Origin: Incurvaria masculella
Lineage: Eukaryota; Arthropoda; Insecta; Lepidoptera; Incurvariidae
Direction of reading: 5' to 3'
Assembly (NCBI GenBank): GCA_946894095.1
Contig: OX335643.1
Location: 6,187,036-6,251,035, forward strand
Length of the DNA stretch: 64,000 nt
Of the stretch, positions 6,321 to 64,000 are shown one piece after another (position 1 is the first letter of the stretch; the number at the start of each line of letters is the position of its first letter). Both the position numbers and the translations under genes were made by a program. The notes beneath the pieces were generated by a model that saw nothing but the letters and a program-made list of their open reading frames with translations, was not told where the DNA came from and did not search any database.

Positions 6321-6981
6321 TACGTTACGGATGAAATCATGATATCATCATGAGTGTCATGAATACATTTCCGCCATCGGATTGGCTAGAGGAAATATTT
6401 TTAGTTCCCTGCTAGTATGTAAGTAGTATACAATATTAATTAAGAGCTTAAGTTTTATTTTGTGGCATTCGTTTTAGTTGATACAAGGAAGATAAGTAAA
6501 ATTGGTTGTAGTAGTAATATAATAAGTCTATGGGTTCCAGGAAAATGTAATTTTCAGGTAATCGAAATCAAATCAATCAGTTTTTTTTTAATAATCAATG
6601 TACACACAAACATATATCTAATATCAATATCTTAGGGAAAACAGTAGTATTTTTAAATAATATGTATTCTAAAGTATTTTCACTCCTTATAAGATATAAG
6701 TAATGCTTGCAGTTCACGGATAATGCATGAAAAAACATATCTTTTTGCCCCTCGGTTCTGAAATTATATACATGTTGAGCGACTCCTATTGTGTAATTAA
6801 TGAATTCTGAATATTAAAGTAAATTAAGTTAGATGCATTTTTTTATCCAAGGAATTCACTCATCACACATGTTTTGGATCTATTATTACAATAACAATGT
6901 ACTTATATATCAATATGTTAAATAATTAATAAACCTGAGCAGTCATTCGTCAAGGTCTTCGTGCATTGATTGAGGAGGATT

Positions 6982-7176
6982 CTAAGAAGTAGCCTGCTCG
7001 TCCCCTATGGGCGCGAGGAACCTGTGCTCCACCATCTCCAGTCTCTCGCTGATGTCATTCAGCTTGGAGCGCAGTTCCGACGTCGAGTTCGCGATGAGGT
7101 GTTTGATGTCCACAAGTTCCTCGTCTATAGATGATAGTGCGGCACAATCGACACAGCTGGTAGCAGGCTCTTCGTG
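6982..7176 (-). CDS. Exon 44: C-terminal CxxC and coiled-coil tail, stop codon
   Basis: 195 nt including TAG at 6984-6982, acceptor gttacag. 64 residues: [16 protein letters not shown], then heptad-like [16 protein letters not shown] and [19 protein letters not shown], ending IGDEQATS. The amphipathic helix and the Cys-x-x-Cys just before it look like an oligomerisation tail. It contains a sequon (NST). Duplicated at 57819-58013 with Glu-to-Lys and Ala-to-Thr changes. No convincing AATAAA was found close downstream. Confidence 0.83.
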   Translation of the reverse strand, partial: HEEPATSCVDCAALSSIDEELVDIKHLIANSTSELRSKLNDISERLEMVEHRFLAPIGDEQATS

Positions 7177-10100
7177 CTGTAACATTGAGAGAACATTTAG
7201 CAAGTGCACACGAAAATAAAACCAAATTAAAATAACTTAAATTTAATTTGAGGACCAGGAAGAATATCAAAATGCAGTTGGAAAGAAAGGACAGATCAAC
7301 CCCATTTATATCGTTGAGAACAACATGTCACATTGATTTTGACGATTATAATTGGTCTCAAAAATATCAATAGATGAACATACAATTACGCTAATAGAGT
7401 TTCTGCAATGTATGTATAGTCCTAGGATCACATACACATAAGTCTAAACTTAATAACAACTGCCATGCGCAGATACCTTAGACCCCAGCCACGTGAAAGT
7501 CTCTTTTCCGGCTATGCCGCATCAAAAACGGAACTTTTAAAACATAACGAATACATTTCACCAAAATCGAACTACGAGTTCGTGGCCTTTGCTGTGGAGA
7601 CTCTTGAAGTTTGGAGCCCAGACGCCAAAAGTCTAGTTAAAGAGGCGTCTGGGGACAAACGTGCGCCCAGTAATCTTAGGCAGAAGATCAGCCTAGCCAT
7701 TCAGCGGGGGAACGCGGCCTCCGTCATCGGCACGTTGCTAATTGCGCCGATCATGCACGAATATTTTAATGTTTAAGTAGCTAGATTTATCTCCTCTTTC
7801 TTTTTTTATTTCTATGTACTATAAATAAATTTTCTCTGCCATGTTAAATCTGTAGCTACCCAGGAAGCAGAGATAATTACTATACATCCCAAAACATATT
7901 TTTCTATAGAATCGATGGATCGGATGGAAAGCAATAATTATTTTATGAACACGGTATAAATTATAATACTGTTTGATTGTGCTTTTATATATTTAATTAT
8001 TTGGATATTATATAATTATTGGTGACCTTTTTGTGTTAAATCGTGTACGGTGGTACGGAACCCTTCGATGCGAGTCCGACTTGCACTTGGTGGGGTTTTT
8101 AAGAGAAAAAAAGGCTACGTGACCAAACAACATTACCGGCAGGTAAGAGAGTTGCACCGCTCTGACTGCAGCCAGTTTGTTGTCACTGTTCCTCACCTCG
8201 CAGGTGTACCAGCCCGCATCCTCCGGCTTCATGTTAGCAATCTGTGGAAGTTCATCAACATAATTAATGGAAAGACAACGGCTTTTTAATAGTTGTCCGG
8301 CAATTGAAAGCGCCTGAGAAGGAATGCCAGGGTTATGAGCATTGCAGGAGGAAAGCCGTTGAGCGGAGCAGGTTGGGTGCAGTCATGGGATTATTAAAAC
8401 AATAGACTAATCATGAAAACGCTCCCAACACAAACACCCGCGTTACTTACTTACCACTCATGAGTATGCATCAATTTTAAATTTGACAGAACTTTCAATT
8501 TGACAGCACAAAATATTTTGTATAAGATCTTACAATTTCACATCAGTGAAGTGAAATCCCAGAAACGAAGTCAACCACAGATTAAAATCCTTTAGGACCT
8601 TTCTGGATGTGTAGAACAAATACTGTGCGATGCACCGAAAAAAATTATCAGTTAATGTAAGTCTAATTCCAATAATAATAAATGTCTTGCAACGTAAAAA
8701 AAACTAAACTAAAACTAAGTAAAACAGTTACTCTAACTGAGTAAAAAGAGTAAGCCTCAAACATTAAATATTACTGTATCTTTCAATTGTTTTTTTAACT
8801 ATGGGAAATTAATGTTTTCTCTTACTGTTTACCTAACTGTGTGCAAACTGTTTCTAGCTTTAGCATTTTTTCCATTCTAACTTACGTCTTATATTCAGTG
8901 AAAAGGTAATGCCCAAGCCATTAAAATTCCCGTCCCTCTTGATACTGAATAGTTGCACGCCTAATTTTTAGTCAAACCGTTTAAAAATCATCTAACCTGT
9001 CACACGTGTTATTTTTACCAAGAGGTGTGCCAAGAGGTACTCTTCAATCGGTTAAAATAACTGTTTAGTACTAACTGTTTTTGCTCATTAATAGATACTT
9101 AATTAACTTAGACTAACATTAATAGTTATGATAAATACTCTACAATAAATGACTGAATTTGATCTGTGCTAAAACAGTCAACAGTTGTACAAATTATTTT
9201 TTTTAGTGGACTCGGGGAAAAGCTGATGGCATACCGAAGACCCACGAGAAAGTATGACGACAGCCATGTTAAAAAAATGGCACCCCTCTGTATGTTGTGA
9301 TATCATCTTAACCCACACCAACCATTTACATGTAATTTAAATCTTCCTACAAAACCTTATATTGACCTGCAGGATTGTTATTACGTTTGAATTGAGATAT
9401 TTTAATGGTTATGGTGCTGTCTCTACAACAAACACAAAAACAACAATCGTTGTTATTAATATTATGTCTGCCTACAGAACCAATACGGTGAAAACAAATA
9501 AATAAGTTAATGAATAAATAAGAAAAACAGCTAATCTGGTCAGCTAAGCTGTTTTTCTTATTTATTCATTAACTTATTTATTTGTTTTCACCGTATTGGT
9601 TCTGTAGGCAGACATAATAGAGATATTTTAATTAAAGAAACATTGCTGCGTGTAACACTCTTTGATACGTCCTTTTATTAAATATCTTGACCACTTCCAC
9701 TTGACATCAACTTGTTTCCGTAAGTTTTTCCGAATTCTTGAATAGACACAACACTACCGATTCTGGAGGCAAAATAAGCACATTACTACTATTTCCCAAA
9801 AAGTATCTCAGTTCACATATTAACTAATACTATTTCATTTGAGTTCGATACAATGTATGGGAACTGTTTGAACTGGCAATGTGCGTATTTTATCCTTCAG
9901 AATAACTCTCTACGGTCATATACCTACTTAAATGGGCTCTAAGAATAACTTACAACCGAAAATAATATTTTAAAAAACTGGAACACGTTGCGGCGCGAAC
10001 CACGAAACTTTGGCTCAGACAGCGACGCCTAGCGCGCTGCACTAAACAAGACTCAGGTGCCCGTTGCCGGAATAGTAATCACTTACAGTAAATGCATCAC

Positions 10101-13100
10101 TGAGACTTAAGATGCATCTGGTGACGTTTCTACGAGCTTAAAGTGTCTAATATGTATAAATTCGGATTCACCTTAGTCAAAACAATTTAACCACGGTAGT
10201 TTGATCCAATAACACTTACATATATTGGTAACGATTTTCTAGCCCATACAAACTTTCTCCTTTCGAAGATATTTGGAAATAATGAAAATGTTGTATCGGA
10301 TAATTTGAAACGTATGGACAAAGTGTGAAAACTGTGGTCAGTAATCGAAGCATCGACCGTGCCTTGCTTCGCTTTATTTTTTGTGACCGGACGAGAAAGT
10401 GTGATTCAAACCTTACCTCCATAGTTTGGGTTATCGGTGAATAGTCGGAGAGGATCTTGATGCGAGGGTTTCTGATCTTAAGGGAACCGTCACGAGAGAT
10501 CTGTACACCTTCCTTCGCCTGGTGACATCAACCATAATATTTATTAACGAAATGTAATCCTGAAAGTCTATTAAAACAAGTTCTTCATACATTTAACTAT
10601 ATCATATCACAGAAAATTTCGCATTTCAATGAATATTTAATTCAATCGATGTTTTATAATGAGCATACATAACAATACTACCAGATTATGTATTGTGTTA
10701 TGAAACTATGGATGGACATGGATGGCTAAACCCACACCTACTGTCATGACATTAGTTAGACCCATTACCTGGAAACTAAGTGCCGTGCCAGCGCGCTCTT
10801 AATATTCCACGGTTACATTGAACTTATTGAAAAACAAAGAAAGTATTCTTTGCCGATTAGACCATCATTCATTGAATCTCTTGGTGCGCCCTAACCCAGG
10901 CGGGATGAACTTTGAAAAGTGGAATGTAATGAAAAGGACCTACAGTTTTCAATTTGATGGAATCCCATCCATGCCTCTCAACTGTCCATCGGCAGAGCCG
11001 AAAACCAAGCCGAGAATCGGAGCACCCCCTTGTGGTTGACATTAGTCTCTTGAGATTGAACCTTTTCTCAAACATATTTCCCCTGCCGCACCGCCAGAAT
11101 ATGGAGCTGTCTGCTGGGGGGTGCCTTTCCTCATACCTATGGCCTGGCGTGATTTAAACAGGTATGGTAGCTCAGTGATAGTCCGCCAATCCACTGGTAT
11201 GGTCCAAAACCCGGCCAGGTAGTGTTGGTTAACGATTCGATTCGTTGTCACTGAACTACCGATCCTGACAAAAAAGTTAACGTTTCAATAGTTTCGAGTC
11301 CATAAGAAAGTAATTAACACTTACCCAGTTAACGTATGAATAGGTTGTGGGTTCGTTGACTACAGTGCATATTAACTTCACGACGTTACCGACTCTTTCC
11401 TGAGTGATTTTTGTAGTAGCATTAGAAGTGACACACTCTGTGAAAAAATAATATAATTTGATCATTTGGCGTGTCTTGAATGTAAAGTTTAATATTAATG
11501 CAAAACAATAGCGATACAGTATAAGAAACTGGCGTATCTGAGGAGCAACGAATGAGTTAATTATATAAGAAAATGCATAATATAAGTAAAGCCAGAGTTT
11601 TAAGTACATATGAAGAGATGTAGTCTGGAGAAGAAAAGGGAAACGTTAAGAGAACCGTTATCGAAGATAAACACTAAGCTTACCTGAGGATATCTCAGGA
11701 GCGCTGTCGCCGGCTGAGGCGATCTTGATGACAGCCTTGGGGTTGTACAGCCAGGACGTTTTGCACACTTCCACACTTAAATCACCATCGTGGTATACAG
11801 AAGAAATTCGTCCTATTTTTCCCAATGACTGAAAATATATTTTCGGAATTTGAAAAATCATAGATTAAGTAAAACAGATTGCCTGAGTGTATGTAACAAA
11901 TATATATGTATAATTGCATACTATTATGAAGCTCCACCAGATGTGTAAGCAGTGATGATAGAGCACAGACAGCATTATTATTTCACTTCCTCTAGTGACA
12001 TACATCTTATTATATGGGATATACGATTGCGGGTGTTACACAACTAATTTTAATTTCATTTTTGGTAACATTTTTGATAATAAGACTACACTAAGTTAAG
12101 TCACAAAGATCCGCGGATTCGAGCAACCCAGTAAACAGGAGAACAGATTAGGGCAACAAGCGAAGAACAAAAGAAACAGCAACCCTTAGTTTAAATTACT
12201 TATAACTAACAAAGTTCTTCTCGAGCCTACTACATACATTCGTGCATCTTCGATATCCCTGTCTCACTACCATACAGACTGCACACCAGCATACCGTTAT
12301 GAATTGCTAACTTAGCTGTAGGCGTTATCGCCCGTCTCTCTGTAATTCTATGAAACAATTTGGGATAGGAGACCACAAAAATATCTGTTGTCTGTGTAGT
12401 TGCCCATAAATAGGATTGATAATATAGGTAATTGCCAATCTAAAAGGTAATCCAGTTCATTGTTTCTGTGCAATATAAAGAAGATCCTGATATGGCACCT
12501 AGTTACCATAAGATGTGCTGATATCACGACACTTAAAACATCAATTTAAAAAAAAATGTATGCTCACACTGTTTATATCAGAACAAAAATATTTTTGAAT
12601 TTATAACACTGTCAGCAACAAAGCGTGACATAAAATTGTTTCATAAGATTTGATGAGTGTCGTTTTCTTAATAACTTGCCATTTTACTTTTAAGCGATAC
12701 ATTCGTTGGGAAAATGCAGTGTCCCATCCATAATAAACGGCCCAAAACACAACGAAAACAACAAAAATTTAACGAGTCTCTAAAATACTTTCCTAGGAAT
12801 TCTCTTACAATATAATTGACCAACATTATTTGCTCTTTCAAGAATACCTTTTCCATTTCATCGTTCCATCCCCCGTGATCTTCTTCTAGCTCCTTCACTT
12901 TCTCCTTGTCGCTGAGCACCCATACTAGGTCTCCTTCCTCGAACTTGTCATCAGTCACCGTGGCCTCTGTGGTGGTGCTGATGGCGGTAGGCAAATGGCG
13001 GACCTCGAGCTTCGCAGCTGCGATCGCTGCTACATGGCTGAATTTCGATATTCCGCACGTATACCAGCCCGCATCTTCAGGTTTCACATCCTCAATCTTC

Positions 13101-46100: not shown

Positions 46101-49100
46101 GTGTCTCGGCTAGTCCTTTTTTTTTTTAATAGCAAGCGGCATTATATTAACAAATAGACAAAAGTGTTGTAGCAATCAACTCAATATAAAGCGAGAAATG
46201 AATTTACGTTAGTAGATAAATTTATCGACGGTTTCGATTGAAATTCATAACCGACTGTAACTTCTGGAATTGTTGATACTAATAAGGTGTATTTTTTTCT
46301 AATGTAAGAATAGAGTAAGAAATAAATGAGAAGGTTCGAATAAGGCATGCTCCAATTTTTAATTTGCTCCAATATTAATTAAAGCTGTTGAAACAACAAA
46401 ATGAGGGACAGCCCTGCTTATCCACATTGTTTTTTTTTATATATTAGTAAGTAACGTACAAATGTTAATGTCTGTAATCATCAGCCTTGAAAAACTAATA
46501 GTAAATTAACAGTCCCACAATATGACTTAGGGATTTTTTGAAGTGGATCATTCAATTACCTGGGGGAAGCTAATGTAGTAAAACAATAAAAAATCTGATT
46601 CTATAAAGACATTAACCAATATCCTACTATGGACGAATAACTGTTTTCAATACCACCCAGACTGATTTGACAAAGAAAACATCAAAATCACTGTTTATCA
46701 TCAAATTACCTTTTCCATACCGCCGACGTAGCCGATGCCATGACTATGTAGTTCCCTTATCAAATCTTCGTCCATGGGTTTTTGTACCAGGTCCCCCGTC
46801 ACGATCTCTGCAATATTTTTCAAAATTAAGTATTGAGTAAAGTCACTACTTTATAGTTGCGTGATCTGACCTTGGCAAGGTGGAGCGAATCGAAAGTCTA
46901 GCTCGGTGCGAGCGACTGACGTTGGGTTTTAGCTAGCACAGCGCCGCGATCTTAGCTTTATTTAGTATATTAACATTTATATAGAAATGCATCCTTTAAT
47001 AGCGAATTAAATTACCAAATAACATAAAACAATATTTGACATCGATGGAATTCTATTTTGGAATTTGTAAGGAAATACATTTAACCTTAGTGGTTTTATG
47101 TGAACTAATACCACCCCTATTGTCATGAATTGAAAATAAACCTACCAACTATTAATGAAGGGTTCTACCATGTAATGTAGAATTGGATCCTCAAACGTCA
47201 AATCCCTAAGTGCGATATACACGGGAATCAATCCCAAACACCAATAAAAGAACATGTTATTGCCCATTCTGAATCAAAACCTACAATTCATCTTTGCAAA
47301 ACATATTTGTTTAATCTTTTTACAAGTTGTTTTATAATAATGAAGTTTAGTTTAATTAAGTAATAAAAATGTATGTGTACTTGTATCTTCTTGGTCGACT
47401 TCTACTTTCACTGCGGCAGTATCAATTAGATCACCGTGTTTTGTAACCTCACAGGTGTACCAGCCCGCATCTTCAGGCTTAAAATCTTCGATCTGTGAGT
47501 TCGAAACAAATTCGTTAAAACTAATGGTCCGACAAACTTCAATGAACTAACAAATCAGTACAAATAACGATTAAGAACTGAGAATAAGAGACGTAAGTAA
47601 AGATTTTTCGTTTTTTTCCTTAGTCGTTTCTGATGGCATAAAAAAACAATTTCAGTATCCTCAAAATGTTACACCAACTCAAGATTTACTATGTTGCAAG
47701 TATAACTCGAAATGACAATTGACAAGTTGCTGAAGAAGAACGTTAAGCAGGTTAACGTTAACAATATGTCCATACCTGCAGCGTGTAGGTTTCTGGGTCA
47801 TCTTCGCTGATTGTGATGCGAGAGGATGAACCCTTTCTAATAGACTCACCATCCTTCACCTGGGGAAAAAATAGAATTTAGCCAACAAATAAAATAATGC
47901 CAAAGTACTTTACTTAATCGAAACGAAAAAAATAATAATGATATTCTCAACTTAATGAAAACAGATGTATACGTTCCAACCAGAACACCAATGTTTTATT
48001 AATGAGTTTAAACTTGTACGTATGTTTAGGGGTGACAAGGAATATGAGGATGGACTACGTTGGAGGACATTGGAGCGGGAAGTTGTTACCCTCGTCGCAG
48101 TCCGCAAGTCAGGCCGTGGAAGCTAGCCGGTTGTCAGGAGCTGACTAGGAATGTGAACCAAAAGGCTTCAGACCAATTTTGAATTATTTTTATTTCTAGT
48201 TATAATGCTCTAATTGGAAGTAGATTGTATAACCTCAAAATAATGAGATGAAAAGAATGAGAGCTGTTTTGTCATATCCATATGATGAATCAACAAAAAA
48301 ATAGGAATGTTTTACCAGAAAGCCTAAAAACGAATAGAAATAGAGGTCTTAGTAATAAACGTAAATGTTAAGGATAACGGAAAAAATCTTTGAATGTTTA
48401 TCCAAAACGATACAAGTACGAAGGTTGTTGAGAGTAGTACTTACCCAACGTACGTCAGAAGATGGAATAGCATCATTCAATATGCATTCAAGATTCAAGT
48501 CGTCCCCAAGTCTTCTTTGTTTTACGTTAACGATGGATTGAGAACGCTCGCAATCTGAAAAAAAAAACCGCAAAAAAATATTTTAAAAACTACTACATTC
48601 GTTTTATTGCCTTTTAACTTTATACAAGAATAAAATAATGAATCGAATTGTCATGTTCTTCAAACAACATTGCGCAACATTATCAGAAGTTTCATCGAGT
48701 CTAAGGTACATTTAAAAATATATTCTAATAATAAATATAAAATATATATTAGTAGCACCGAGTTTGTCAAATAAGTTTGATTGGAGAATAGAATCAGACC
48801 CCTAAAACATACTTTCGGATATCTCAGAATGTTGTTTTCGTTGGATACTGAGTTCAAGGGTGAAATATAAATATGTGTGTTTACACCGTTCTGTTGAATA
48901 TGGGAAGCTAGACATCACGTTTAGGTAAACTCTTATTGATATATCGAACTTACTTGACGATATCTCCGGTCCGCTGTCGCCGGCCGACGCAAGCTTGGTG
49001 ACGGCCTTGGCACTGTAGAACCATGTTGTATCGCAGATAATCACCTTGAGGTCGCCGTCTGAATCTATGTACTTGACTTTTCCTATTTTTCCTAATGTCT

Positions 49101-52100
49101 AGAATAAAATGAGGCGTTTTGATAAAACATTTCGCAAGTGTAGTACCAATAAACTCAACAAAAATAAAGTTAGAACTGTCATCACGTTATAATATACATT
49201 CGTCGAGGTTAGGAAAATATATTTGATACCTATTCGTAATTTCTTAAATTGTTGAAAGAAGTTAAGTAGAAGTTATTTAAAGAAGAAGGAATAATTAAAA
49301 TAACTAATAGGAAGTTTAGAAGTAAGTTAATTCCGACAAATGTTAGAGCTGAATAATTAAACAAAACCAAGTATAGCTTTCATCACCCACATCCTGCGGC
49401 AAGAGGGGTGAATATCTATAAATACATGATTTAAGAAATAATCACACTTACTGGTTTCATGTCACCGTTGAACCCTATTCCGTGGCTATGCAGTTCTGTG
49501 ACCAAATCCTCGTCCGAGGAGATCTGCACGTAGTCCCCCGACGAGAACTCTGTCGCTGCGACCGGCCATGTTCCTGCTCCTGCGTGACGAGAGGTCCAAA
49601 TGAAAGTTATCCACGTTTAAATGGAAATTGGATTTTTTTAATGCCGACAGTGAATTTGTGTTTTATTATGCAACCTGACATTGATGGCTAATACCACACA
49701 ACTACCGTTATGGTATAAGTCCAATACACTTCATTCCCGAAGGGATTAGGTGCCATGCCAGGACCTTCCCTTTATGAGCACATTGAACTGGATGGAAAAC
49801 ACGGACAATTTTTCACTGCCGCTTCGACCATCTTTTCATCCAATGCGATGGTATTAACCCGGGCGGGTGTAAACCCGACCACCTAGTAGGGGAAGGGGAC
49901 CTACTGTTTTACACGGATTCCGAACCATGGAGAGGCTCACATTCGTGGCGACATCCACTTATCTAACTCAGAATGAGAAAGAAAGTGGTGCATGAACGGG
50001 GCGTGGATTTAAACCCAGACCTCTGGTATTCTAGTCCCCGCGCCACTAGGCTACGAGCCGCTCAAATTCCGCATTCGCTTCCCGTTCCGCGTTGAGCGAT
50101 GGTAGAAAAGGGACGTTGAGACAGCGTTATGCAGTTCTTAAGGCTGTCGTGAGGTCACAAGAAATGTAAGATTGCAAAATTTAAAGAAATGCTCTTTTTG
50201 TCCACTAGCCAAGGCACAATTTTGCACGGCGACTGCCATTAAAATAGCGAAATCTTCTTTCAGACGCTAAAATTTTCCAAAACGTTGTCAGATGTTAATC
50301 ACCTAGTAAAACATTAAGAGCATGGAAACAGTTATCGCCCGTAGTATGGGGAATTGATAGGGTAAGGACTTTGTTAATATGTGTATCCTAACTTTAAGCG
50401 GCTCGTAGCCTAGTGGCGCGGAGACTGGCCTAGCGTACCAGAGACCTGGGTTCAATACCGACATGCACCACTGTCTTTCTCTTTCCGAGTTCGATAAGTG
50501 CATTTCGTTACGAATGTGAGCTGCTCCATGGTTCGGAATCCATGTAAAACTGTAGGTCCCCTTCCCCTACTAGGTGGTAGGGTTAATGCCCGCCCGGGTT
50601 GGTACCATCGCATTGGATGAAAAGATGGTCGAAGCGGCAATGAAAAATTGTCCGTGTTTTCCATCCAGTTCAATGTAGCCGTGCTCATAAAGGGAAGGTC
50701 CTGGCATGGCACCAAATTCCTTCGGGAATGAGGTGTATTGGGCTAATATCATAACGGATGTTGTGTGGTATTAGCCATCCATGTCAGGTCGCATAAAAAA
50801 AAAAAAAAACTGGACATGGATGGCTAAACCACACACGATATTTAGTTTGACGGCTTACCGTGCGTATGAGCAGCGGACCGTGGTGCTTTCAGTAAACTGT
50901 CATAATAAATATTATAGTCATGTCCGCGTAAGTTTAAGTAAAACAGTGATATTACCACACATACTGTCATGACATTATTCCAATGCACCGCTGTCTCGAA
51001 GGAATTACTAGGTGATATGCCAGGACATTCCCTTTACGAGTAAGGCTACATTTAATTGCTTACGGACTTTTTCAATACCGCTTCCTTTCATACAATATGA
51101 TGGTACTTAGTCGGGTGGGCTTAACCCTATCACCTAGTTTCAATTGAAATTTCATTTAATTAAACTTTTTGGTAGTCAAACTATATTAAATTACGTCACA
51201 AAGATCGATGGACCAAAAAAAAACATTACTTATAGAGCAGTAAAGCTTCTTTGCGGGTTCTTCTTCACTGAGTTATTCGATCAATCAAATTTTGACATCG
51301 CTTTGTGTAGTTTGACTATCAAAAGTTGAATAAATAAATGAAATGAAAGTCATAAATGAAATAAATGAAATAAATGAAAGTCAACATATTATAAAGAAAA
51401 TAATTATAACAAATACTACCAGCGTAGGATCGTGTCGATTCTTACAATAATGCACCAGTCATGTAATGTATGTACTAGTAGGGGAAGGGGATGTACAGTT
51501 ACATGGATACTGAACTATGAAACAGCTCGCATTCATGGCAAAGTGCACTTGAAAAAGAAAGAAATTGGTGGATGAACGGGGGGAAATTCAACACATAACA
51601 TGTTGCGAGAGAAACGGACATAAGGTTTTCCAATGTGTGCCATAAAAGCGACATTTCGAAATTATTGTTTGATGGATTCTTTTATTTTTGCCTTTTCAAC
51701 TATGTAAGATCTTAAAATTTCAAACTATGAAATCAAATATATGAATAAACATTTGGAAAGAAAATAAATTAAAATCCATTAAGACAGAAAAATATGTAAA
51801 ACTGGACTTGAATACGCTGATGGGTGGACACGCTGACCTGTCCATCCTTCCCTTAAGCCACGCCCTTTAATAGCATTTTCATCACGTATGATATAAATAG
51901 AAGATACATTTTGATAATTTTATGTCTTTAATGGACCATTCATTTGGGTTTCAGCGACATCTTCAAGCATTGTAATAAGATTTTTAAAATAATCTGAAAA
52001 AGTATTGGTCGTGACATTCATCGGAAGCAGGATTTGAACCTGCGATCTTTGGATTACATGTCCACTGCCCTAAACCAAATGTAGATGTCGCTGAAACTCA

Positions 52101-52207
52101 AATTATTAAGATATTTTTTAACGCACAAACATTTTGTACACTTGCAACTTACCCCAGCAAAGAGTAGAGCAAAAAAATGCTGTAAAAAATAGCACAGGGA
52201 GCTCCAT
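6982..52207 (-). CDS. Whole gene (44 coding exons): secreted protein with nine tandem MIB-type SH3 + Ig modules and a C-terminal coiled coil
   Basis: Seen: 44 minus-strand exons with AG/GT borders and matching phases give 5535 nt, or 1844 residues. Order: signal peptide (about 1-18), then nine repeats of [SH3-like domain of about 90 residues + Ig domain of about 100 residues], then a 64-residue Cys-x-x-Cys/coiled-coil tail. The SH3 units read GDxVQxxxDExxVxxL...M.. then LGKIGxVxxxDxDxDLxVxxC..W.y..KaVxKLaSaG. This matches the Mind bomb SH3 repeat (SH3_15) of MIB1/MIB2. Modules 5 and 9 keep the MIB signature HGGW. Each Ig has the B-strand Cys (LxC) and the F-strand D.GWYTCE motif. No RING, ZZ or ankyrin repeats are present, so this is not Mind bomb itself. 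Inferred: a secreted, multivalent, probably oligomeric binding or adhesion protein. Ligand and process are unknown, and it is not assigned to a named gene. Transcript support cannot be checked here, and alternative splicing is possible. Confidence 0.82.
7465..7776 (+). pseudogene. Retroelement-tail-like ORF in the last intron, antisense (left copy)
   Basis: 103-codon plus-strand ORF with [38 protein letters not shown] and [11 protein letters not shown] recognise the FAVETLG.W ... [13 protein letters not shown] pattern from uncharacterised ORFs that occur beside reverse-transcriptase-type elements in animals, but the family is uncertain. No upstream coding region is present, so it is most likely an element remnant carried inside the intron between exons 43 and 44. 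The right copy is at 58326-58616. Confidence 0.5.
8008..8115 (+). repeat. Fragment of the GGCCAAGTGCGAGTCGG interspersed repeat
   Basis: Sequence ttttttgtgttaaat..gtgta, ggtacggaacccttcg, gcgagtccgacttgcacttgg matches the end of the repeat seen whole at 31000-31277. It is also in the duplicate (58865-58945), so it pre-dates the duplication. It sits just downstream of the exon 43 donor. Confidence 0.7.
8137..8241 (-). CDS. Exon 43: Ig domain 9, last third
   Basis: 105 nt, phase 0 to 0. [35 protein letters not shown]. Unlike the other last-third exons it ends in phase 0 and joins the tail exon instead of an SH3. Duplicated at 58979-59083. Confidence 0.83.
9400..9624. mobile_element. Palindromic insertion with target-site duplication
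   Basis: Arms 9461-9532 and 9547-9618 are perfect 72-bp inverted repeats around a 14-nt spacer. The insertion is flanked by gagatattttaat on both sides (about 9394-9406 and 9620-9632), and the duplicate locus (about 60700) has only one copy of that sequence and no insertion. Its left flank (ggttatggtgctgtctctac) recurs at about 39576. Confidence 0.8.
10417..10518 (-). CDS. Exon 42: Ig domain 9, middle third
   Basis: 102 nt, phase 0 to 0. [34 protein letters not shown]. Acceptor tcaccag, donor GTAAGG. Confidence 0.8.
10705..10918 (-). mobile_element. SINE tail, minus strand
   Basis: ATGGACATGGATGGCTAAA, CTGTCATGACATTAG, AGTGCCGTGCCAG, and CCCAGGCGGGATGAA blocks match the shared tail in reverse. 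Intronic (exons 41-42). Confidence 0.6.
10945..11235 (+). pseudogene. LINE 3' fragment (C terminus of reverse transcriptase ORF)
   Basis: Plus-strand remnant with HPLVVDI, a frameshift, then [14 protein letters not shown] coding (ctgccgcaccgccagaatatggagctgtctgc) and [13 protein letters not shown] tail (cgccaatccactggtatgg). The same element occurs at 23695-23930. Frameshifted and truncated. Confidence 0.55.
11325..11437 (-). CDS. Exon 41: Ig domain 9, first third
   Basis: 113 nt, phase 1 to 0. [28 protein letters not shown], ending YSYVNW. Carries the sequon NAT. Confidence 0.84.
11684..11828 (-). CDS. Exon 40: MIB-type SH3 domain 9, second half
   Basis: 145 nt, phase 0 to 1. [48 protein letters not shown]. 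Conserved Cys and Trp, and the MIB-like YNP. Confidence 0.85.
11840..12660. other. Intron 39-40, no further feature
   Basis: AT-rich intron DNA between exons 39 and 40. No repeat with clear borders was recognised; a short SINE-tail-like piece may lie at 12480-12530 (gatcctgatatggcacctag). Confidence 0.4.
12848..13096 (-). CDS. Exon 39: fused exon, Ig 8 last third + SH3 9 first half (HGGW form)
   Basis: 249 nt, phase 0 to 0, 83 residues. [30 protein letters not shown], a Thr-rich linker ([12 protein letters not shown]), then [19 protein letters not shown] and [13 protein letters not shown]. The HGGW motif makes this the most MIB-like first half. It has no counterpart in the downstream paralogue segment. 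Confidence 0.87.
13788..13889 (-). CDS. Exon 38: Ig domain 8, middle third
   Basis: 102 nt, phase 0 to 0. [34 protein letters not shown], donor GTACAT. Duplicated at 62559-62681. Confidence 0.8.
14750..14859 (-). CDS. Exon 37: Ig domain 8, first third
   Basis: 110 nt, phase 1 to 0. [27 protein letters not shown], ending DSHVLW. Carries the sequon NTT. A near-identical copy is at 63444-63553 in the adjacent paralogue. Confidence 0.85.
14930..15245 (+). repeat. Interspersed repeat (acccggctccgcttgggt type), left duplicate
   Basis: Starts near ggtacccggctccgcttggg and contains tgtcgttttggactgatgtc, also seen as a short fragment at 30672-30710 and as the right duplicate at 63645-63960. A 95-codon plus-strand ORF in the right copy is broken in this one. 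No domain recognised. Confidence 0.5.
15640..15860 (+). repeat. Interspersed repeat shared with 57160-57360
   Basis: gtacatactagcaccttcag, ataggtacaatgcattcgaaa and tacttcctgccttcg occur in the same order and direction at 57160-57360. Origin unknown. Confidence 0.55.
16085..16135 (+). repeat. Retroposon 3' tail motif
   Basis: gacgaattgagaacctcctttttgaagtcggttaaaaag is a tail commonly seen in lepidopteran retroposons. It is short, so only a fragment. Confidence 0.5.
16337..16481 (-). CDS. Exon 36: MIB-type SH3 domain 8, second half
   Basis: 145 nt, phase 0 to 1. [48 protein letters not shown]. Its donor, ACGC|GTAAAT, makes the junction residue His rather than Asp/Glu/Asn. Confidence 0.82.
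16764..17042 (-). CDS. Exon 35: fused exon, Ig 7 last third + SH3 8 first half
   Basis: 279 nt, phase 0 to 0, 93 residues. [33 protein letters not shown], an extended acidic linker ([21 protein letters not shown]), then [20 protein letters not shown] and NFPDEMRQ. The longest exon of the gene, with the longest Ig-to-SH3 linker. Confidence 0.86.
17794..17889 (-). CDS. Exon 34: Ig domain 7, middle third
   Basis: 96 nt, phase 0 to 0. [32 protein letters not shown]. Acceptor aattatcag, donor GTAAAG. Confidence 0.82.
18483..18745 (+). pseudogene. LINE (RTE-type) reverse-transcriptase C terminus, fragment
   Basis: Plus-strand coding remnant: [37 protein letters not shown], then [20 protein letters not shown] and VQPWTHTR. 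This is the familiar C-terminal end of lepidopteran endonuclease-reverse transcriptases. Truncated on the left, with small internal deletions. It lies in the intron between exons 33 and 34. Confidence 0.75.
18798..18907 (-). CDS. Exon 33: Ig domain 7, first third
   Basis: 110 nt, phase 1 to 0. [28 protein letters not shown], ending QSHVYW before GTGAGT. A LINE tail (18495-18735) lies only about 60 bp downstream in the intron. Confidence 0.84.
18955..19056 (+). repeat. 35-bp tandem repeat, about 2.8 copies
   Basis: Unit atgaattagaaacatg... of 35 bp starts at 18955, 18990 and 19025. The first two copies are identical. Intronic minisatellite. Confidence 0.9.
19546..19690 (-). CDS. Exon 32: MIB-type SH3 domain 7, second half
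   Basis: 145 nt, phase 0 to 1. [48 protein letters not shown]. Conserved Cys and Trp present. Confidence 0.85.
19820..20125. mobile_element. Fold-back element with tRNA-like centre
   Basis: Arms: ataatcgaccgtgaagcga...attaattaaagaaag (19865) and its inverse ctttctttaattaatgtgtccttgcttcacggtcgattat (20060-20100). The centre holds ggcgaaattggttagacg and gggtccagcc, like a leucine-type tRNA D-arm and T-arm. Related copies are at 30345, 36000 and 54640. Confidence 0.7.
20222..20464 (-). CDS. Exon 31: fused exon, Ig 6 last third + SH3 7 first half
   Basis: 243 nt, phase 0 to 0, 81 residues. [16 protein letters not shown] gives the Ig F strand, with Gly replaced by Thr. It continues without an intron through [11 protein letters not shown] into [19 protein letters not shown] and [16 protein letters not shown]. 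The intron that separates exons 26 and 27 at the equivalent point is absent. Confidence 0.86.
21045..21325 (+). mobile_element. SINE with 5S-like head and shared tail
   Basis: Head: gcctcggcatttgatacctt, ggatgggcaaccg (resembling the box C end of 5S rRNA), then ttcggattccacgtaacactc and a degenerate version of the shared SINE tail up to gtggtgtattgggctta. Compare 53282-53520. Confidence 0.5.
21435..21536 (-). CDS. Exon 30: Ig domain 6, middle third
   Basis: 102 nt, phase 0 to 0. [34 protein letters not shown]. Acceptor gttccag, donor GTAATG. Confidence 0.8.
22088..22397 (-). repeat. Interspersed repeat, GGCCAAGTGCGAGTCGG type, full copy
   Basis: Begins ccggccaagtgcgagtcgg, passes through gtatttattttgccgata-like and tcatgagatacagccctgtg (reverse sense), a cggacgga-rich stretch, and ends tttgggtacggaacccta. 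Other copies: 31000-31277, 31690-31968, 54290-54506. Abundant in Lepidoptera; class not certain to me. Confidence 0.75.
22408..22520. repeat. Hairpin repeat, AAAGTGACGTGTTT type
   Basis: Internal inverted repeat: aagcacgtcactttgtatgg ... actaaaagtgacgtgtttgag. Two further copies lie at 62105-62215 and 62290-62405. Non-coding. Confidence 0.65.
22683..22800 (+). repeat. Interspersed repeat shared with 29815-29960
   Basis: gggtaggcagatgtgataga, gcggtacgaccacag and ttcatcgccagacatgc match gggtaggcagagataataga, acggtacgatcacagc and cttcatttacagacatac at 29830-29910. Unknown class. Confidence 0.5.
23074..23183 (-). CDS. Exon 29: Ig domain 6, first third (strand-C Trp replaced by Leu)
   Basis: 110 nt, phase 1 to 0. 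[28 protein letters not shown], ending SSGVRL. The invariant strand-C Trp of the other eight copies is TTG (Leu) here, a one-base change from TGG. The donor GTGAGT is intact. Carries an N-glycosylation sequon (NAT). The preceding 3.2-kb intron holds a broken reverse transcriptase. Confidence 0.82.
23695..23935 (+). pseudogene. LINE 3' fragment (same family as 10945)
   Basis: [47 protein letters not shown]: the C terminus of a reverse transcriptase ORF, followed by a short 3' region. The intact reading is limited to about 60 codons. Intronic (exons 28-29). Confidence 0.65.
24318..25835 (+). pseudogene. Broken non-LTR reverse transcriptase
   Basis: Starts inside the RT domain at [13 protein letters not shown] (catalytic Asp of motif A) and continues to [20 protein letters not shown] and the active-site block LFYMDDFKL (about 24616). 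A frameshift near 24700, an in-frame TAG at 25357-25359 and a second frameshift near 25500 interrupt it. The last segment, [16 protein letters not shown] to [15 protein letters not shown], is the C terminus. YMDD-type RTs with this C terminus resemble R2/R4-like elements, but the clade is a guess. No N-terminal part. It lies in the intron between exons 28 and 29, antisense to the host gene, so it is not functional. Confidence 0.8.
25836..26340. other. Intron 28-29 remainder
   Basis: AT-rich DNA following the broken reverse transcriptase, with a short (aat)n-like stretch at 25975-26000. No other feature seen. Confidence 0.4.
26421..26565 (-). CDS. Exon 28: MIB-type SH3 domain 6, second half
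   Basis: 145 nt, phase 0 to 1. [48 protein letters not shown]. Nearly identical to exon 32, so modules 6 and 7 are close sisters. Confidence 0.85.
27013..27167 (-). CDS. Exon 27: MIB-type SH3 domain 6, first half
   Basis: 155 nt, phase 1 to 0. A Glu/Thr/Pro linker ([11 protein letters not shown]) is followed by [19 protein letters not shown] and [16 protein letters not shown]. It closely matches the second part of exon 31, but here an intron separates it from its Ig. Confidence 0.82.
27357..27456 (-). CDS. Exon 26: Ig domain 5, last third
   Basis: 100 nt, phase 0 to 1. [33 protein letters not shown]. Tyr replaces the usual Asp before Ala-Gly-Trp-Tyr. Confidence 0.83.
27540..28080. other. 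Intron 25-26, no further feature
   Basis: AT-rich, with a (ta)n run at 27612-27640. No repeat family or coding remnant recognised. Confidence 0.4.
28119..28196 (-). CDS. Exon 25: Ig domain 5, middle third
   Basis: 78 nt, phase 0 to 0: [26 protein letters not shown]. Acceptor gtcaacag, donor GTAAGT. Confidence 0.78.
28459..28571 (-). CDS. Exon 24: Ig domain 5, first third
   Basis: 113 nt, phase 1 to 0. [28 protein letters not shown], ending LNLKW. One residue longer than most. Confidence 0.83.
28860..29045 (+). repeat. Interspersed repeat shared with 39685-39900
   Basis: gttgaatagggataataaag, gttgcaattcacattac, aatgaaatgacttaatta and ctacttaggcataatttgga match in order at 39690-39860. Unknown class. 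Confidence 0.5.
29320..29480 (+). repeat. Interspersed repeat shared with 35470-35610
   Basis: ctgaaatcaggtctcaaac, ttgctgctgatattgaca and accaattcagttaagg match ctgaagtcaggtctcaaac, tctgctgatattgacagt and accaatttaacag. The two copies lie in different introns (23-24 and 19-20). Confidence 0.5.
29616..29763 (-). CDS. Exon 23: MIB-type SH3 domain 5, second half
   Basis: 148 nt, phase 0 to 1. [49 protein letters not shown]. It keeps the W.YNP form of MIB repeats. Three nucleotides longer than the other eight second-half exons. Confidence 0.84.
29815..30065 (+). repeat. Interspersed repeat (second copy of the 22683 family, longer)
   Basis: Begins gccgcgcttccggatgggta; continues with GC-richer sequence (cctagcccgcctgggcacg) than the flanking intron. 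The minus-strand 84-codon ORF has no domain I recognise. Confidence 0.45.
30345..30570. mobile_element. Fold-back element, partial copy
   Basis: ttttcgtactaagcaggtac, cttattccaaggaatgtg and ggataatcgacgatgaagca match one arm of the 36000-36515 element. The rest (gttcgaatcctgcttcagacg) is a tRNA-like B-box fused behind it. Confidence 0.6.
31000..31277 (+). repeat. Interspersed repeat, GGCCAAGTGCGAGTCGG type
   Basis: aacggaaccctattactaag, tccgtccgtccttccgtccg-like run, tatttattttgccgctaca, ending ccgactcgcacttggccgg. Opposite in direction to 22088-22397. Confidence 0.75.
31385..31515 (-). CDS. Exon 22: MIB-type SH3 domain 5, first half (HGGW form)
   Basis: 131 nt if the first of three in-frame AGs (tagCAGCAG) is used; the other two shorten it by one or two codons. 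[43 protein letters not shown]. The HGGW motif is the classic MIB-repeat signature. The exon lies between two same-direction copies of one interspersed repeat (31000-31277 and 31690-31968). Confidence 0.82.
31690..31968 (+). repeat. Interspersed repeat, GGCCAAGTGCGAGTCGG type, second copy beside exon 22
   Basis: agggttctgtacccaaaggg to cgactcgcgcttggccgg. Same direction as 31000-31277, with exon 22 between them. Confidence 0.75.
31970..33060. other. Intron 21-22 remainder
   Basis: GC-rich patch at 32020-32110 (gcggcggcggtgggggagcg), then AT-rich DNA. A short exon-like remnant lies at 32757-32810 (see findings). No complete element recognised. Confidence 0.4.
33105..33216 (-). CDS. Exon 21: Ig domain 4, last third
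   Basis: 112 nt, phase 0 to 1. [20 protein letters not shown], then [17 protein letters not shown]. Acceptor ccgcag, donor GTAAGT. Confidence 0.85.
33692..33802 (-). CDS. Exon 20: Ig domain 4, middle third (longest, extra Cys)
   Basis: 111 nt, phase 0 to 0, 37 residues: [37 protein letters not shown]. The longest middle exon, with a Phe/Ser-rich insert and an extra Cys not seen in the other eight. Confidence 0.78.
33803..35750. other. Intron 19-20, mostly featureless
   Basis: Nearly 2 kb of AT-rich intron. Apart from the repeat at 35470-35610 no coding remnant or bounded repeat was recognised. Confidence 0.4.
35754..35863 (-). CDS. Exon 19: Ig domain 4, first third
   Basis: 110 nt, phase 1 to 0. 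[27 protein letters not shown], ending DSYVRW before GTGAGT. Confidence 0.84.
36000..36515. mobile_element. Fold-back element with tRNA-like centre, interrupted copy
   Basis: Left arm ataatcgaccgtgaagcaag (36017) and right arm cttgcttcacggtcgattat (36447). The centre has ggtggcgaaattggaagacg and ggttcgcgtccaaccctgc. Ends ggaataagcgacgtacct and ttagtacgaaaacc. Intronic (exons 18-19). Confidence 0.65.
36869..37013 (-). CDS. Exon 18: MIB-type SH3 domain 4, second half
   Basis: 145 nt, phase 0 to 1. [45 protein letters not shown]. The intron upstream (37014-38764) carries a SINE tail, a LINE-like tail and microsatellites. Confidence 0.84.
37214..37236 (+). repeat. Short interstitial CCTAA (insect telomere-type) repeat
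   Basis: Four successive cctaa units. TTAGG is the usual insect telomeric repeat, but a run this short can arise by chance or from a retroposon tail. Confidence 0.7.
37425..37695 (+). mobile_element. SINE tail, plus strand, degenerate
   Basis: aaggctaatcccgcccgccc, acgatggccgaaccggca, ataaggaaggtcctgacgtg, ggggtgtgtgggctagta, ending gtccagttacataaa. Confidence 0.6.
38042..38066 (+). repeat. (CA)n microsatellite
   Basis: About ten CA units within acaacacacacacacaca. Confidence 0.9.
38125..38295 (+). mobile_element. Retroposon 3' end with poly-A
   Basis: ggcctagggttaggttagac, ctgattccggaatcaggtat, tgcgtaaagcatttcacctc, ending in about 13 A. A poly-A end indicates a retrotransposed LINE or SINE 3' terminus. 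Confidence 0.55.
38765..38862 (-). CDS. Exon 17: MIB-type SH3 domain 4, first half
   Basis: 98 nt, phase 1 to 0. [19 protein letters not shown], then [13 protein letters not shown]. The donor is GTAAGT-like (CCGGTAAG). Confidence 0.82.
39410..39527 (-). CDS. Exon 16: Ig domain 3, last third
   Basis: 118 nt, phase 0 to 1. [20 protein letters not shown], then [12 protein letters not shown]. Two residues longer than its counterparts, in an acidic F-G loop. Confidence 0.84.
39570..39660 (+). repeat. Repeat related to the left flank of the palindrome at 9400
   Basis: ggttatgatgctgtctctac, agcaaacacaaaaaaacaac, then ggcagaaataata. No long palindrome here. Confidence 0.5.
39685..39905 (+). repeat. 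Interspersed repeat shared with 28860-29045
   Basis: See the other copy. Here it includes gttgcgaaaaacattcatta and gcctacctaggcaaaatttg, followed by a GC-richer end (gacgggagatggcgctgg). Confidence 0.5.
40798..40866 (-). CDS. Exon 15: Ig domain 3, middle third (shortest)
   Basis: 69 nt, phase 0 to 0, 23 residues: [18 protein letters not shown] then SYTEE. The acceptor is ttcgcag and the donor GTACGT. It is the shortest of the nine middle exons and lacks the PRIT motif found in several others, so the C'-E region of this Ig is compact. Confidence 0.75.
40935..41010 (+). mobile_element. tRNA-like SINE head fragment
   Basis: atgatccaaaggtcgaaggt, tcatgtcctgctttcgacga, atatcacgacc: the same family as 51985-52085 (there minus strand), with a degraded B-box. 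Confidence 0.45.
41072..41181 (-). CDS. Exon 14: Ig domain 3, first third
   Basis: 110 nt, phase 1 to 0. [28 protein letters not shown], ending TSLSW. All three conserved positions are kept. Confidence 0.84.
41734..41749 (+). repeat. Poly-G tract, 16 G
   Basis: Sixteen consecutive G in AT-rich intron DNA. On the coding (minus) strand this is poly-C. Confidence 0.95.
42106..42250 (-). CDS. Exon 13: MIB-type SH3 domain 3, second half
   Basis: 145 nt, phase 0 to 1. [45 protein letters not shown]. Conserved Cys and Trp present. Confidence 0.85.
42477..42660 (+). mobile_element. SINE head with internally deleted tail
   Basis: gcggctcgtagcctagtggc (A-box tagcctagtgg), ggttcaattctgacatgcac (B-box-like), then a jump to gtgtggtattagccagctat and a short A-run. 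Confidence 0.7.
42703..42800 (-). CDS. Exon 12: MIB-type SH3 domain 3, first half
   Basis: 98 nt, phase 1 to 0. [19 protein letters not shown], then [13 protein letters not shown]. The intron just upstream is alignable with the intron upstream of exon 7. Confidence 0.82.
43510..43621 (-). CDS. Exon 11: Ig domain 2, last third
   Basis: 112 nt, phase 0 to 1. [16 protein letters not shown], then [18 protein letters not shown]. Canonical F-strand motif and GTACAC donor. Confidence 0.85.
43907..44005 (-). CDS. Exon 10: Ig domain 2, middle third
   Basis: 99 nt, phase 0 to 0. [33 protein letters not shown]. Compared with exon 5 it carries a five-residue insertion (HIDGD region). Confidence 0.82.
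44932..45041 (-). CDS. Exon 9: Ig domain 2, first third
   Basis: 110 nt, phase 1 to 0. [26 protein letters not shown], ending PPASVQW at the donor. Junction Cys, B-strand Cys and strand-C Trp are all present. Confidence 0.85.
45789..45933 (-). CDS. Exon 8: MIB-type SH3 domain 2, second half
   Basis: 145 nt, phase 0 to 1. [45 protein letters not shown]. The conserved Cys and Trp are present, and it is nearly identical to exon 3. Confidence 0.85.
45955..46045 (+). repeat. (TTTA)n-type low-complexity repeat
   Basis: tttatttatttatttactta and variants over about 80 bp. Confidence 0.85.
46710..46807 (-). CDS. Exon 7: MIB-type SH3 domain 2, first half
   Basis: 98 nt, phase 1 to 0, residues about 212-244. 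[19 protein letters not shown], then [13 protein letters not shown]. Same length as exons 12 and 17. Confidence 0.82.
46960..47370. other. Intron 6-7, no further feature
   Basis: The part next to exon 7 (46815-46960) is alignable with 42810-42960. The remainder is AT-rich without recognised repeats. Confidence 0.45.
47381..47492 (-). CDS. Exon 6: Ig domain 1, last third (strands E-G)
   Basis: 112 nt, phase 0 to 1, residues about 175-211. [16 protein letters not shown] holds the Asp-x-Gly-x-Tyr-x-Cys F-strand signature. It is followed by a charged linker ending VEVDQEDT. Confidence 0.85.
47776..47859 (-). CDS. Exon 5: Ig domain 1, middle third
   Basis: 84 nt, phase 0 to 0, residues about 147-174. 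[28 protein letters not shown] covers strands C' to E. The acceptor is ttccccag and the donor GTATGG. It is very similar to exon 10, pointing to a recent module duplication. Confidence 0.82.
48445..48554 (-). CDS. Exon 4: Ig domain 1, first third (strands A-C)
   Basis: 110 nt, phase 1 to 0, residues about 110-146. Starts with the junction Cys (NCERSQ), then the B-strand LNLEC, and ends at the strand-C Trp (SSDVRW) just before a GTAAGT donor. All nine first-third Ig exons end at this position. Confidence 0.85.
48954..49098 (-). CDS. Exon 3: MIB-type SH3 domain 1, second half
   Basis: Residues about 62-109, 145 nt, phase 0 to 1. [17 protein letters not shown] is followed by [15 protein letters not shown] and a LASAG tail. 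All nine second-half exons start with [T/S/A]LGKIG. Eight are 145 nt long and one is 148 nt. The Cys before the conserved Trp is not a feature I know from cytosolic MIB repeats. Confidence 0.85.
49452..49579 (-). CDS. Exon 2: MIB-type SH3 domain 1, first half
   Basis: Residues about 19-61, phase 1 to 0. After a short linker ([10 protein letters not shown]) the SH3 half reads [20 protein letters not shown] then IGFNGDMKP. It corresponds to the first strands of the SH3_15 fold. The acceptor is cacgcag and the donor GTAAGT. Cleavage of the signal peptide would leave this SH3 at the mature N terminus. Confidence 0.8.
49672..50070 (-). mobile_element. tRNA-derived SINE, complete copy, minus strand
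   Basis: Reads in reverse from the tail (cctgacattgatggctaata) to the head (cgccactaggctacgagccgct). The A-box is recognisable, and the B-box region is ggatttaaaccc. About 400 bp. Intron 1. Confidence 0.8.
50393..50800 (+). mobile_element. tRNA-derived SINE, complete copy, plus strand
   Basis: Head gcggctcgtagcctagtggc with A-box, ggttcaataccgacatgcac with B-box GGTTCAATACC, tail through ttggtaccatcgcattgg and ttagccatccatgtcaggtc, ending in a run of 14 A. Forms an inverted pair with 49672-50070. Confidence 0.85.
50810..51610 (-). mobile_element. SINE, minus strand, interrupted
   Basis: Tail pieces actggacatggatggctaaa (50810) and cacatactgtcatgacatta to cttaaccctatcacctagt (50955-51138), then, after about 330 bp of other AT-rich DNA, taggggaaggggatgtacag to attggtggatgaacgggg (51478-51585). 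Looks like one old SINE split by a later insertion. Confidence 0.55.
51965..52090 (-). mobile_element. tRNA-like SINE head in intron 1
   Basis: On the minus strand: ttagggcagtggacatgtaa, gatcgcaggttcaaatcctg, cttccgatgaatgtcacgac. A- and B-box-like motifs (GGTTCAAATCC) are good, but acceptor-stem pairing is not evident, so a SINE head is preferred over a tRNA gene. Confidence 0.6.
52153..52207 (-). CDS. Exon 1: start codon and signal peptide
   Basis: ATG at 52207. The 18 codons encode a short acidic start (MELP) followed by a hydrophobic, Phe-rich core ending in Ser-Thr-Leu-Cys-Trp-Gly, a typical cleavable signal peptide. The exon ends in phase 1 at a GTAAGT donor, matching the phase-1 acceptor of exon 2. 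It is too short to stand out as an ORF and was found by reading upstream of the first domain exon. Confidence 0.78.
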
Positions 52208-57717: not shown

Positions 57718-57818
57718 CGGACCTATTGTTACAGTAACATTTTTTGTATCCGTACGTGACAGAATTAATCAATCTGAGCAGTTATTATTCGACGTCTTCG
57801 TGCAGACATCGGAGGATT

Positions 57819-58013
57819 CTAAGAAGTAGCCTGCTCATCCCCTATGGGCGTGAGGAACCTGTGCTCCACCATCTCCAGTCTCTCGCTGATGTCATTCAGC
57901 TTGGAGCGCAGTTTTGACGTCGAGTTCGCGATGAGGTGTTTGATGTCAACAAGTTCCTCGTCTATAGATGATAGTGCGGCACAATCGACACAGCTGGTAG
58001 CAGGCTCTTCGTG
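57819..58013 (-). CDS. Paralogue exon: C-terminal CxxC/coiled-coil tail (copy of exon 44)
   Basis: 195 nt with stop, acceptor gttacag. Differs from exon 44 at only a few bases, two of them changing residues. A tttatt (AATAAA on the minus strand) at about 57559-57564, 255 nt past the stop, is a possible polyadenylation signal. It lies beside a short fold-back element. Confidence 0.82.
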   Translation of the reverse strand, partial: HEEPATSCVDCAALSSIDEELVDIKHLIANSTSKLRSKLNDISERLEMVEHRFLTPIGDEQATS

Positions 58014-63553: not shown

Positions 63554-63644
63554 CTGGTGGAATGAGAAATATTGATGTTACTTTATATTCAACCTTCCTC
63601 TACTAGTATTTCAATGCTGCTAGCAACATTTATAACCTAAATAG

Positions 63645-63960
63645 CTTCGGTACCCGGCTCCGCTCGGGTCAATGTCGTTTTGGACTGATGTCGTTCTGAA
63701 TAATTTCCTGGATAAAAAGTACCCCAAAGGGCTGGTCCAAAAGGCTGGTCCAGGACAGTGTATCCTTACTTACTTGAAGTTTTACGTGGACCCCCAATCA
63801 CAGCCAGCCTCAACATCGAAAATGGTAACCTATTCCGAACCTGACTGCTCCCAGAGATGCTGTACGTTGATAAAATACGCATTGGTATTCAGCACAGCCA
63901 ACTATACCGGTTTTACAAAAAAAATTCGGGCGAGTGGTTCGCAAGTTATGAGAATTTAAC
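63645..63960 (+). repeat. Interspersed repeat (acccggctccgctcgggt type), right duplicate
   Basis: Fuller copy of 14930-15245, with a 95-codon open frame (MSFWTDVVLNNFLDKKY ...). No domain recognised. The left copy is disrupted, so coding is doubtful. Confidence 0.5.
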
Positions 63961-64000
63961 ACTCACTACTCACCATTCTGGTAATGAAGCGTTATATTAT

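Follow-up and report, generated by a model that had tools for sequence, protein, structure and literature searches.

A nine-module gene alternating Mind bomb-type SH3 repeats with Ig domains in Incurvaria masculella, and its predicted secreted product

Exon structure and domain content of the gene

The window analysed here is a 64,000-nucleotide stretch of Incurvaria masculella DNA. Reading of the sequence places on its minus strand, which is the coding strand, a gene of 44 exons that begins with an ATG at 52207 and ends with a stop codon at 6982-6984. When joined, the exons form 5520 nt in one frame, with a single terminal stop, and encode 1839 aa; the sequence-only reading of this locus had given 1844 residues and no strand. 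GT-AG boundaries flank all 43 introns, which range from 189 to 3237 nt and follow a repeating phase pattern. The splice sites were chosen by hand with the domain pattern and the phases in view, the model being drawn from sequence only, and its least secure exons are IgB3, IgB4 and IgB6. The layout runs from a predicted signal peptide through nine modules, each an SH3_15 domain followed by an Ig domain, to a tail with a CVDC motif and a heptad-like stretch; without its signal, the mature protein would be an acidic chain of ~201 kDa with a pI of 4.8.

Exon 1 (52153..52207) supplies the start codon and the predicted signal peptide, ends at a phase-1 donor, and has a homologous exon in two paralogues. 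The domains that follow, all on the minus strand, are Pfam matches except where stated. SH3_15 no. 1 lies at 48954..49579 (exons 49452-49579 and 48954-49098) and Ig no. 1 at 47381..48554 (exons 48445-48554, 47776-47859 and 47381-47492). The second module comprises SH3_15 at 45789..46807 (46710-46807, 45789-45933) and Ig at 43510..45041 (44932-45041, 43907-44005, 43510-43621), the third SH3_15 at 42106..42800 (42703-42800, 42106-42250) and Ig at 39410..41181 (41072-41181, the weak exon 40798-40866, 39410-39527), and the fourth SH3_15 at 36869..38862 (38765-38862, 36869-37013) and Ig at 33105..35863 (35754-35863, the weak exon 33692-33802, 33105-33216). SH3_15 no. 5, which contains an HGGW motif, occupies 29616..31515 (31385-31515, 29616-29763) and is followed by Ig no. 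5 at 27357..28571 (28459-28571, 28119-28196, 27357-27456). SH3_15 no. 6 (26421..27167; exons 27013-27167 and 26421-26565) precedes an Ig domain at 20222..23183 that has no core tryptophan and falls under the Pfam cut-off; its exons are 23074-23183, the weak 21435-21530 and the first part of 20222-20464. The second part of that last exon, together with 19546-19690, forms SH3_15 no. 7 (19546..20464). Ig no. 7 (16764..18907) is read from 18798-18907, 17794-17889 and the first part of 16764-17042, and SH3_15 no. 8 (16337..17042) from the second part of 16764-17042 and exon 16337-16481. Likewise, Ig no. 8 (12848..14859) takes 14750-14859, 13797-13889 and the first part of 12848-13096, the second part of which joins 11684-11828 to make SH3_15 no. 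9 (11684..13096), an HGGW domain with the top MIB1 REP2 score of the nine. Ig no. 9 spans 8137..11437 (11325-11437, 10417-10518, 8137-8241), and the last exon (6982..7176) carries, as read from the sequence, the CVDC motif, the heptad-like tail and the stop codon.

Exon phases recur in a fixed order (SH3a 1-0, SH3b 0-1, IgA 1-0, IgB 0-0, IgC 0-1), indicating that the SH3 and the Ig are each a symmetric 1-1 unit; phase 0 marks the end of the last Ig and of the IgC exons fused to the next SH3. One study describes the 1-1 class as the phase class that exon shuffling in metazoans favours (PMC4284660). An internal intron interrupts the SH3 of every module. In modules 6, 7 and 8 a single exon holds both the end of the Ig and the start of the next SH3, so that the alternation is written inside single exons. 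The nine SH3-plus-Ig units that had been proposed are thus all present, but the idea of a separate three-exon Ig in each gives way in modules 6-8 to exons shared with the next SH3, and a tail exon is added.

Profile searches gave the domain assignments that the earlier reading had expected. SH3_15 matched nine stretches of the joined model (369.6 bits against a cut-off of 24, E 6.3e-113) and, scanned module by module, all nine at E < 0.01, the best at 1.4e-20 and module 1 at 49.6 bits. Several Ig families matched the joined model, and singly 8/9 Ig domains exceeded a Pfam gathering score; the exception, Ig6, has Leu in place of the core Trp, scores 25.1 against a V-set gathering score of 26, and looks degraded. 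Both Ig cysteines (B and F strands) are present in 9/9 domains. Among structures, the Ig parts match titin (2e-7), Dpr4 (4e-7), Dscam (5e-5), DIP-eta (0.007) and, weakly, hemolin (0.08). The 21 Pfam families found in the joined model at E up to 0.1 include no MIB_HERC2, ZZ, ankyrin or RING domain. Every one of the nine SH3s keeps LGKIG, one Cys and one Trp, and HGGW occurs in modules 5 and 9 only, as had been noted; the W.YNP motif, offered as part of the general pattern, is limited to those same two modules. The SH3 parts are not of the MIA type, which has two disulfides, since they match SH3_15 only and have one Cys each.

Elsewhere in the window, ten other open reading frames were compared with Pfam. 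One is a mariner-type transposase and another (43361-43822) is part of the gene itself; the other eight had no Pfam match above cut-off. The transposase, of mariner/Mos1 type, is an open frame of 349 residues at 951-2003 on the minus strand (Transposase_1 1.9e-26, HTH_48 2e-17). A 416-nt repeat at 50394-50809 is 98% identical to 60217-60632, with diverged relatives near 42479, 49662, 4034 and 6013, and probably represents an interspersed element of recent origin. A tRNA scan and an Rfam search at gathering scores found nothing in the window. Prokaryotic and viral origins were rejected: scans with one short pattern each picked out 182 stretches in genome_contigs and 17 in viral_contigs, none of which was confirmed, and phages likewise gave none.

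A cluster of paralogues

Searches of the genome (552 Mb, 31 contigs) returned at least 26 SH3_15 matches, which on contig C3 lie at 6.016-6.534 Mb and 7.43-7.46 Mb, and which otherwise comprise MIB1 and a MIB2-like gene; paralogue exons were read in 226 kb of the cluster DNA. The gene is therefore a member of a cluster. Immediately upstream in tandem is gene 2, whose 3' part falls in the window at 57819..63553 on the minus strand (Ig exons 63444-63553, 62589-62681 and 58979-59083; tail 57819-58013) and whose signal and SH3 exons lie outside it, the signal exon at C3:6259726. Gene 2 encodes a one-module protein of 272 aa, consisting of a signal, an SH3_1-like SH3, an Ig of IgA8-IgB8-IgC9 type and the tail. 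It looks as though it arose by internal deletion, an event that the frame-neutral module joints would permit. Window positions 57719-63995 are a tandem copy of the 3' end of the nine-module gene at 6876-15271, with an identity of 94.6% along 2.5 kb of alignment and of 86.5% along a further 1.7 kb; the copy lacks the stretch of IgC8, SH3_9, IgA9 and IgB9.

Further members include gene 3, a multi-module gene that reaches at least C3:6318896; a possible partial gene between C3:6149005 and a signal exon at 6168878; multi-module exons at C3:7422311-7442320; plus-strand exons at 6.50-6.52 Mb; and a divergent gene at about 7.4457-7.4540 Mb of C3, with a hydrophobic first-exon candidate, one SH3, an Ig and a tail. 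In this divergent paralogue the IgC frame at C3:7452312-7452467 continues into the apparent start of another Ig. Two SH3_15 matches of the 7.43-7.44 Mb gene (C3:7437400-7437549 and 7441349-7441462) contain TAG, which may reflect splice-site edges or decay.

Origin and divergence of the SH3 and Ig halves

The nearest solved structure to the SH3 part by sequence is the MIB1 REP region (4tse, 3e-31; 3e-39 in a profile search, with 4xi6 also at the top). SH3_9 is identical to MIB1 REP2 at 40/75 residues, and each of the nine obtains a better score with REP2 (125-219) than with REP1 (52-114). Inspection of the animal's own MIB1 gene (C5, 14.36 Mb), with MIB splice sites read from the sequence, shows that REP1 has no internal break and that REP2 is split in phase 0 between ATG GCA CCG and ACC CTG GGA AAA; the MIB2-like gene (C9) is apparently split at the same REP2 position. 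The SH3 exons of the window gene have an intron identical to that of MIB1 REP2 in both place and phase. Together with the Pfam and structure matches, this shared intron bears out the Mind bomb-type identity first suggested from sequence motifs.

The exon ends extend the comparison. Among 25 cluster SH3b exons collected by pattern matching (at least two further cluster SH3 matches, near 6161084 and 7460767, fell outside the pattern and were left out), 25/25 start after AG in phase 0, and the phase-1 GT stands at 145 nt in 20 and at 148 nt in five. The second REP2 exon of MIB1 has a candidate phase-1 GT exactly at 145 nt and another at 154. Joined at GTGTCAG/GC GAG CGG, the 145-nt end reads ...GNSS-GERLSALLKKLF; its donor, GTTCCC, is weak, making this exon end probable but short of proof. 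The first REP2 exon of MIB1 apparently starts in phase 0 rather than 1, so capture needed a new phase-1 start. Given the shared phase-0 REP2 intron and the candidate 145-nt exon end, the most likely source of the SH3 half is a MIB gene whose genomic exons were captured, and the phase-1 end of the second REP2 exon was probably retained in the captured unit. With a new phase-1 start, the SH3 would have become a symmetric 1-1 unit, free to combine with a 1-1 Ig unit and to multiply. Exon capture looks to have carried an intracellular domain into a secreted setting here, and the genome still contains the donor gene, whose intron testifies to the event.

Comparison of SH3b exons within the gene gave dN below dS in 28/28 pairs (module 5, which differs in length, was omitted, and three pairs were saturated in dS); modules 1 and 2, for example, gave 0.07 against 0.68, and the worst pair 0.59 against 0.83. 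For gene 3, where each window exon of modules 5-9 was set against its best match, dN/dS was 0.51 for Ig, 0.32 for SH3 and 0.09 for the tail; gene 3 has two module-9-like copies, the pairing of some module-8 and -9 exons is uncertain, and SH3a7 and SH3b7 (two of the ten SH3 rows) were paired with the gene 3 module-6 copy and kept in the totals. No dN/dS above 1 was found in this comparison. A chance array or a pseudogene is ruled out by the single frame across 43/43 GT-AG introns and by dN below dS both between modules and against gene 3. The gene 2 pair alone does not show constraint, as dN (0.039) is close to dS (0.046) over all shared exons; its differences are 17 nonsynonymous to 2 synonymous in Ig and 6 to 6 in SH3 plus tail (p 0.03; 0.07 without IgB). 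Overall, these values suggest a conserved SH3 and a modestly faster Ig, positive selection not being proven.

When modules are compared two by two, the SH3 halves resemble each other more than the Ig halves do in 33 of 36 cases. In a module tree with the two MIB1 repeats as outgroup and several weak forks, SH3_5 and SH3_9 fall nearest the MIB1 repeats, and modules 1-4 and 6-8 group; the Ig tree is mostly unresolved. Within 16764-27167, SH3_6 and SH3_7 are 81% identical (dS 0.53) and Ig_6 and Ig_7 35% (dS 2.1). Modules 1 and 2 are opposite in dS, at 1.05 for SH3 and 0.36 for Ig. The halves of these modules thus differ in age, which suggests gene conversion or separate exon duplication.

Predicted export, architecture and relation to known proteins

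SH3a1 has no in-frame Met after the preceding stop and must therefore follow another exon. Nine first-exon candidates lie between 49.6 and 57.8 kb, two of them with a strong hydrophobic core; the one at 50970 is more hydrophobic, but only the candidate at 52207 has a 6/6 donor fit. This exon is kept in two neighbouring paralogues, gene 2 (four codons shorter) and the paralogue to the left (six codons shorter), with length changes that stay in frame and the same GTAAGT donor, a pattern that supports the signal-peptide start proposed earlier; the divergent paralogue is also preceded by a hydrophobic first-exon candidate. The joined model contains no membrane-length hydrophobic stretch after the signal, and the product is predicted to leave the cell through the signal peptide. 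Its N-glycosylation sequons number only four, where shuffled sequences average 8.2 and 130 of 2000 shuffles were as low, so a typical secreted glycoprotein is not favoured.

Most of the cysteines, 36 of 41, fit a scheme of four per module, placed in the SH3, at the Ig start, and in the Ig B and F strands; of the remaining five, the signal peptide and the tail hold two each and the weak exon IgB4 one. Spacing is 28 residues from the SH3 Cys to the Ig-start Cys in 8/9 modules (29 in the other) and 22 residues from there to the B-strand Cys in 9/9. The SH3 Cys is also present in MIB1 REP2, indicating that it is older than export and is not by itself proof of a disulfide. We propose that it is bonded to the Ig-start Cys (residues 1642 and 1670 in module 9), which would make each SH3-Ig pair one rigid unit. 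In the tail, the heptad score of a stretch picked by eye was equalled by 86 of 20000 shuffles, and the CVDC/heptad region could link chains, placing many modules on one particle. The SH3 halves may stay alike as a shared scaffold or as a peptide-binding pocket, and the faster-changing Ig halves would carry specificity. MIB1 REP is described as binding the C-box, a short epitope of Jagged1/Delta tails (PMC11887331).

On balance, we favour the reading that the product is secreted, oligomeric and a multivalent binder, a nine-module SH3-Ig chain whose SH3 was captured from a MIB gene. It would most likely serve to recognise foreign surfaces or those of other cells, or for adhesion within a body fluid or matrix. 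More tentatively, a Mind bomb recognition domain lifted by exons, paired with Ig, locked by disulfides and grown into an oligomeric family with diversifying Ig halves might constitute an immune- or self-recognition system. The cluster points to a predicted family of secreted proteins whose role is open to direct testing.

A secreted structural protein of matrix or adhesion, in which the array would serve as an extended spacer or as a cross-linker with no recognition role, as in other matrix proteins built from repeats, seems to us rather unlikely. Nine near-regular modules ending in a CVDC/heptad tail, in a large acidic chain, would suit such a protein, and MIA, a secreted SH3 protein, works in matrix according to the accessible text of one article (PMC10453029); a one-module paralogue with the same tail is, however, odd for a pure spacer, and the clustering of the family, its varying module number and Ig halves less alike than the SH3s also speak against this reading. 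Still less probable is that the array represents several shorter genes or alternative products. The neighbouring gene does show that one module can stand between homologous first and last exons, and frame-neutral joints would let skipping or separate use stay in frame, yet scans of 6982-52207 gave one family signal exon and one tail exon, and the phases run continuously through the modules. That the signal exon is wrong and the product an intracellular Ig/SH3 scaffold, muscle- or ligase-like, is highly improbable: described SH3_15 proteins are of E3-ligase type in the text seen of one source (PMC11701565), titin is among the Ig matches and sequons are few, but SH3a1 needs an upstream exon, a hydrophobic GTAAGT exon is kept in two paralogues, and both Ig cysteines persist in 9/9 domains.

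Our preferred reading, a secreted multivalent binder, would place this among the multi-Ig proteins, joined here to a partner domain new to them. The literature searched, with most subscription papers outside it, contained no secreted or extracellular SH3_15-Ig protein; in the portion of a review that could be consulted, the MIB1 repeats are named and, elsewhere, another Ig protein. Entries for relatives may well be present in databases through automatic annotation. With Dpr4, Dscam, DIP-eta and hemolin the protein shares tandem Ig domains, here with no membrane-length segment. We know of no multi-Ig protein that pairs each Ig with an SH3. MIA and OTOR, as far as the consulted part of their description goes (PMC10453029), have an SH3-like fold that acts outside cells and disulfides, features predicted here too, but contain one SH3 per protein, whereas the present SH3s are SH3_15 only and have Ig partners. 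Arrays of SH3_15 are found in Arabidopsis KEG (seven) and zebrafish ftr97 (six), E3-ligase-type proteins with RING that share the presence of several SH3_15 domains per protein, and for which the excerpt available mentions neither Ig nor secretion (PMC11701565). The sequence-only reading, which knew the repeat from cytosolic MIB ligases only, was in this respect slightly narrow, although, on the same partial source, these additional carriers are still of E3-ligase type. The MIB1/2 REP region itself is closest, sharing the domain family (SH3_15, PF18346), the identity to REP2 seen in module 9 and the internal phase-0 intron; here, by contrast, the repeat stands behind a predicted signal peptide, alternates nine times with Ig, and is accompanied by no matched ligase domain. 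This combination suggests that the Mind bomb SH3 repeat may be a general binding module, beyond its role with Notch ligands.
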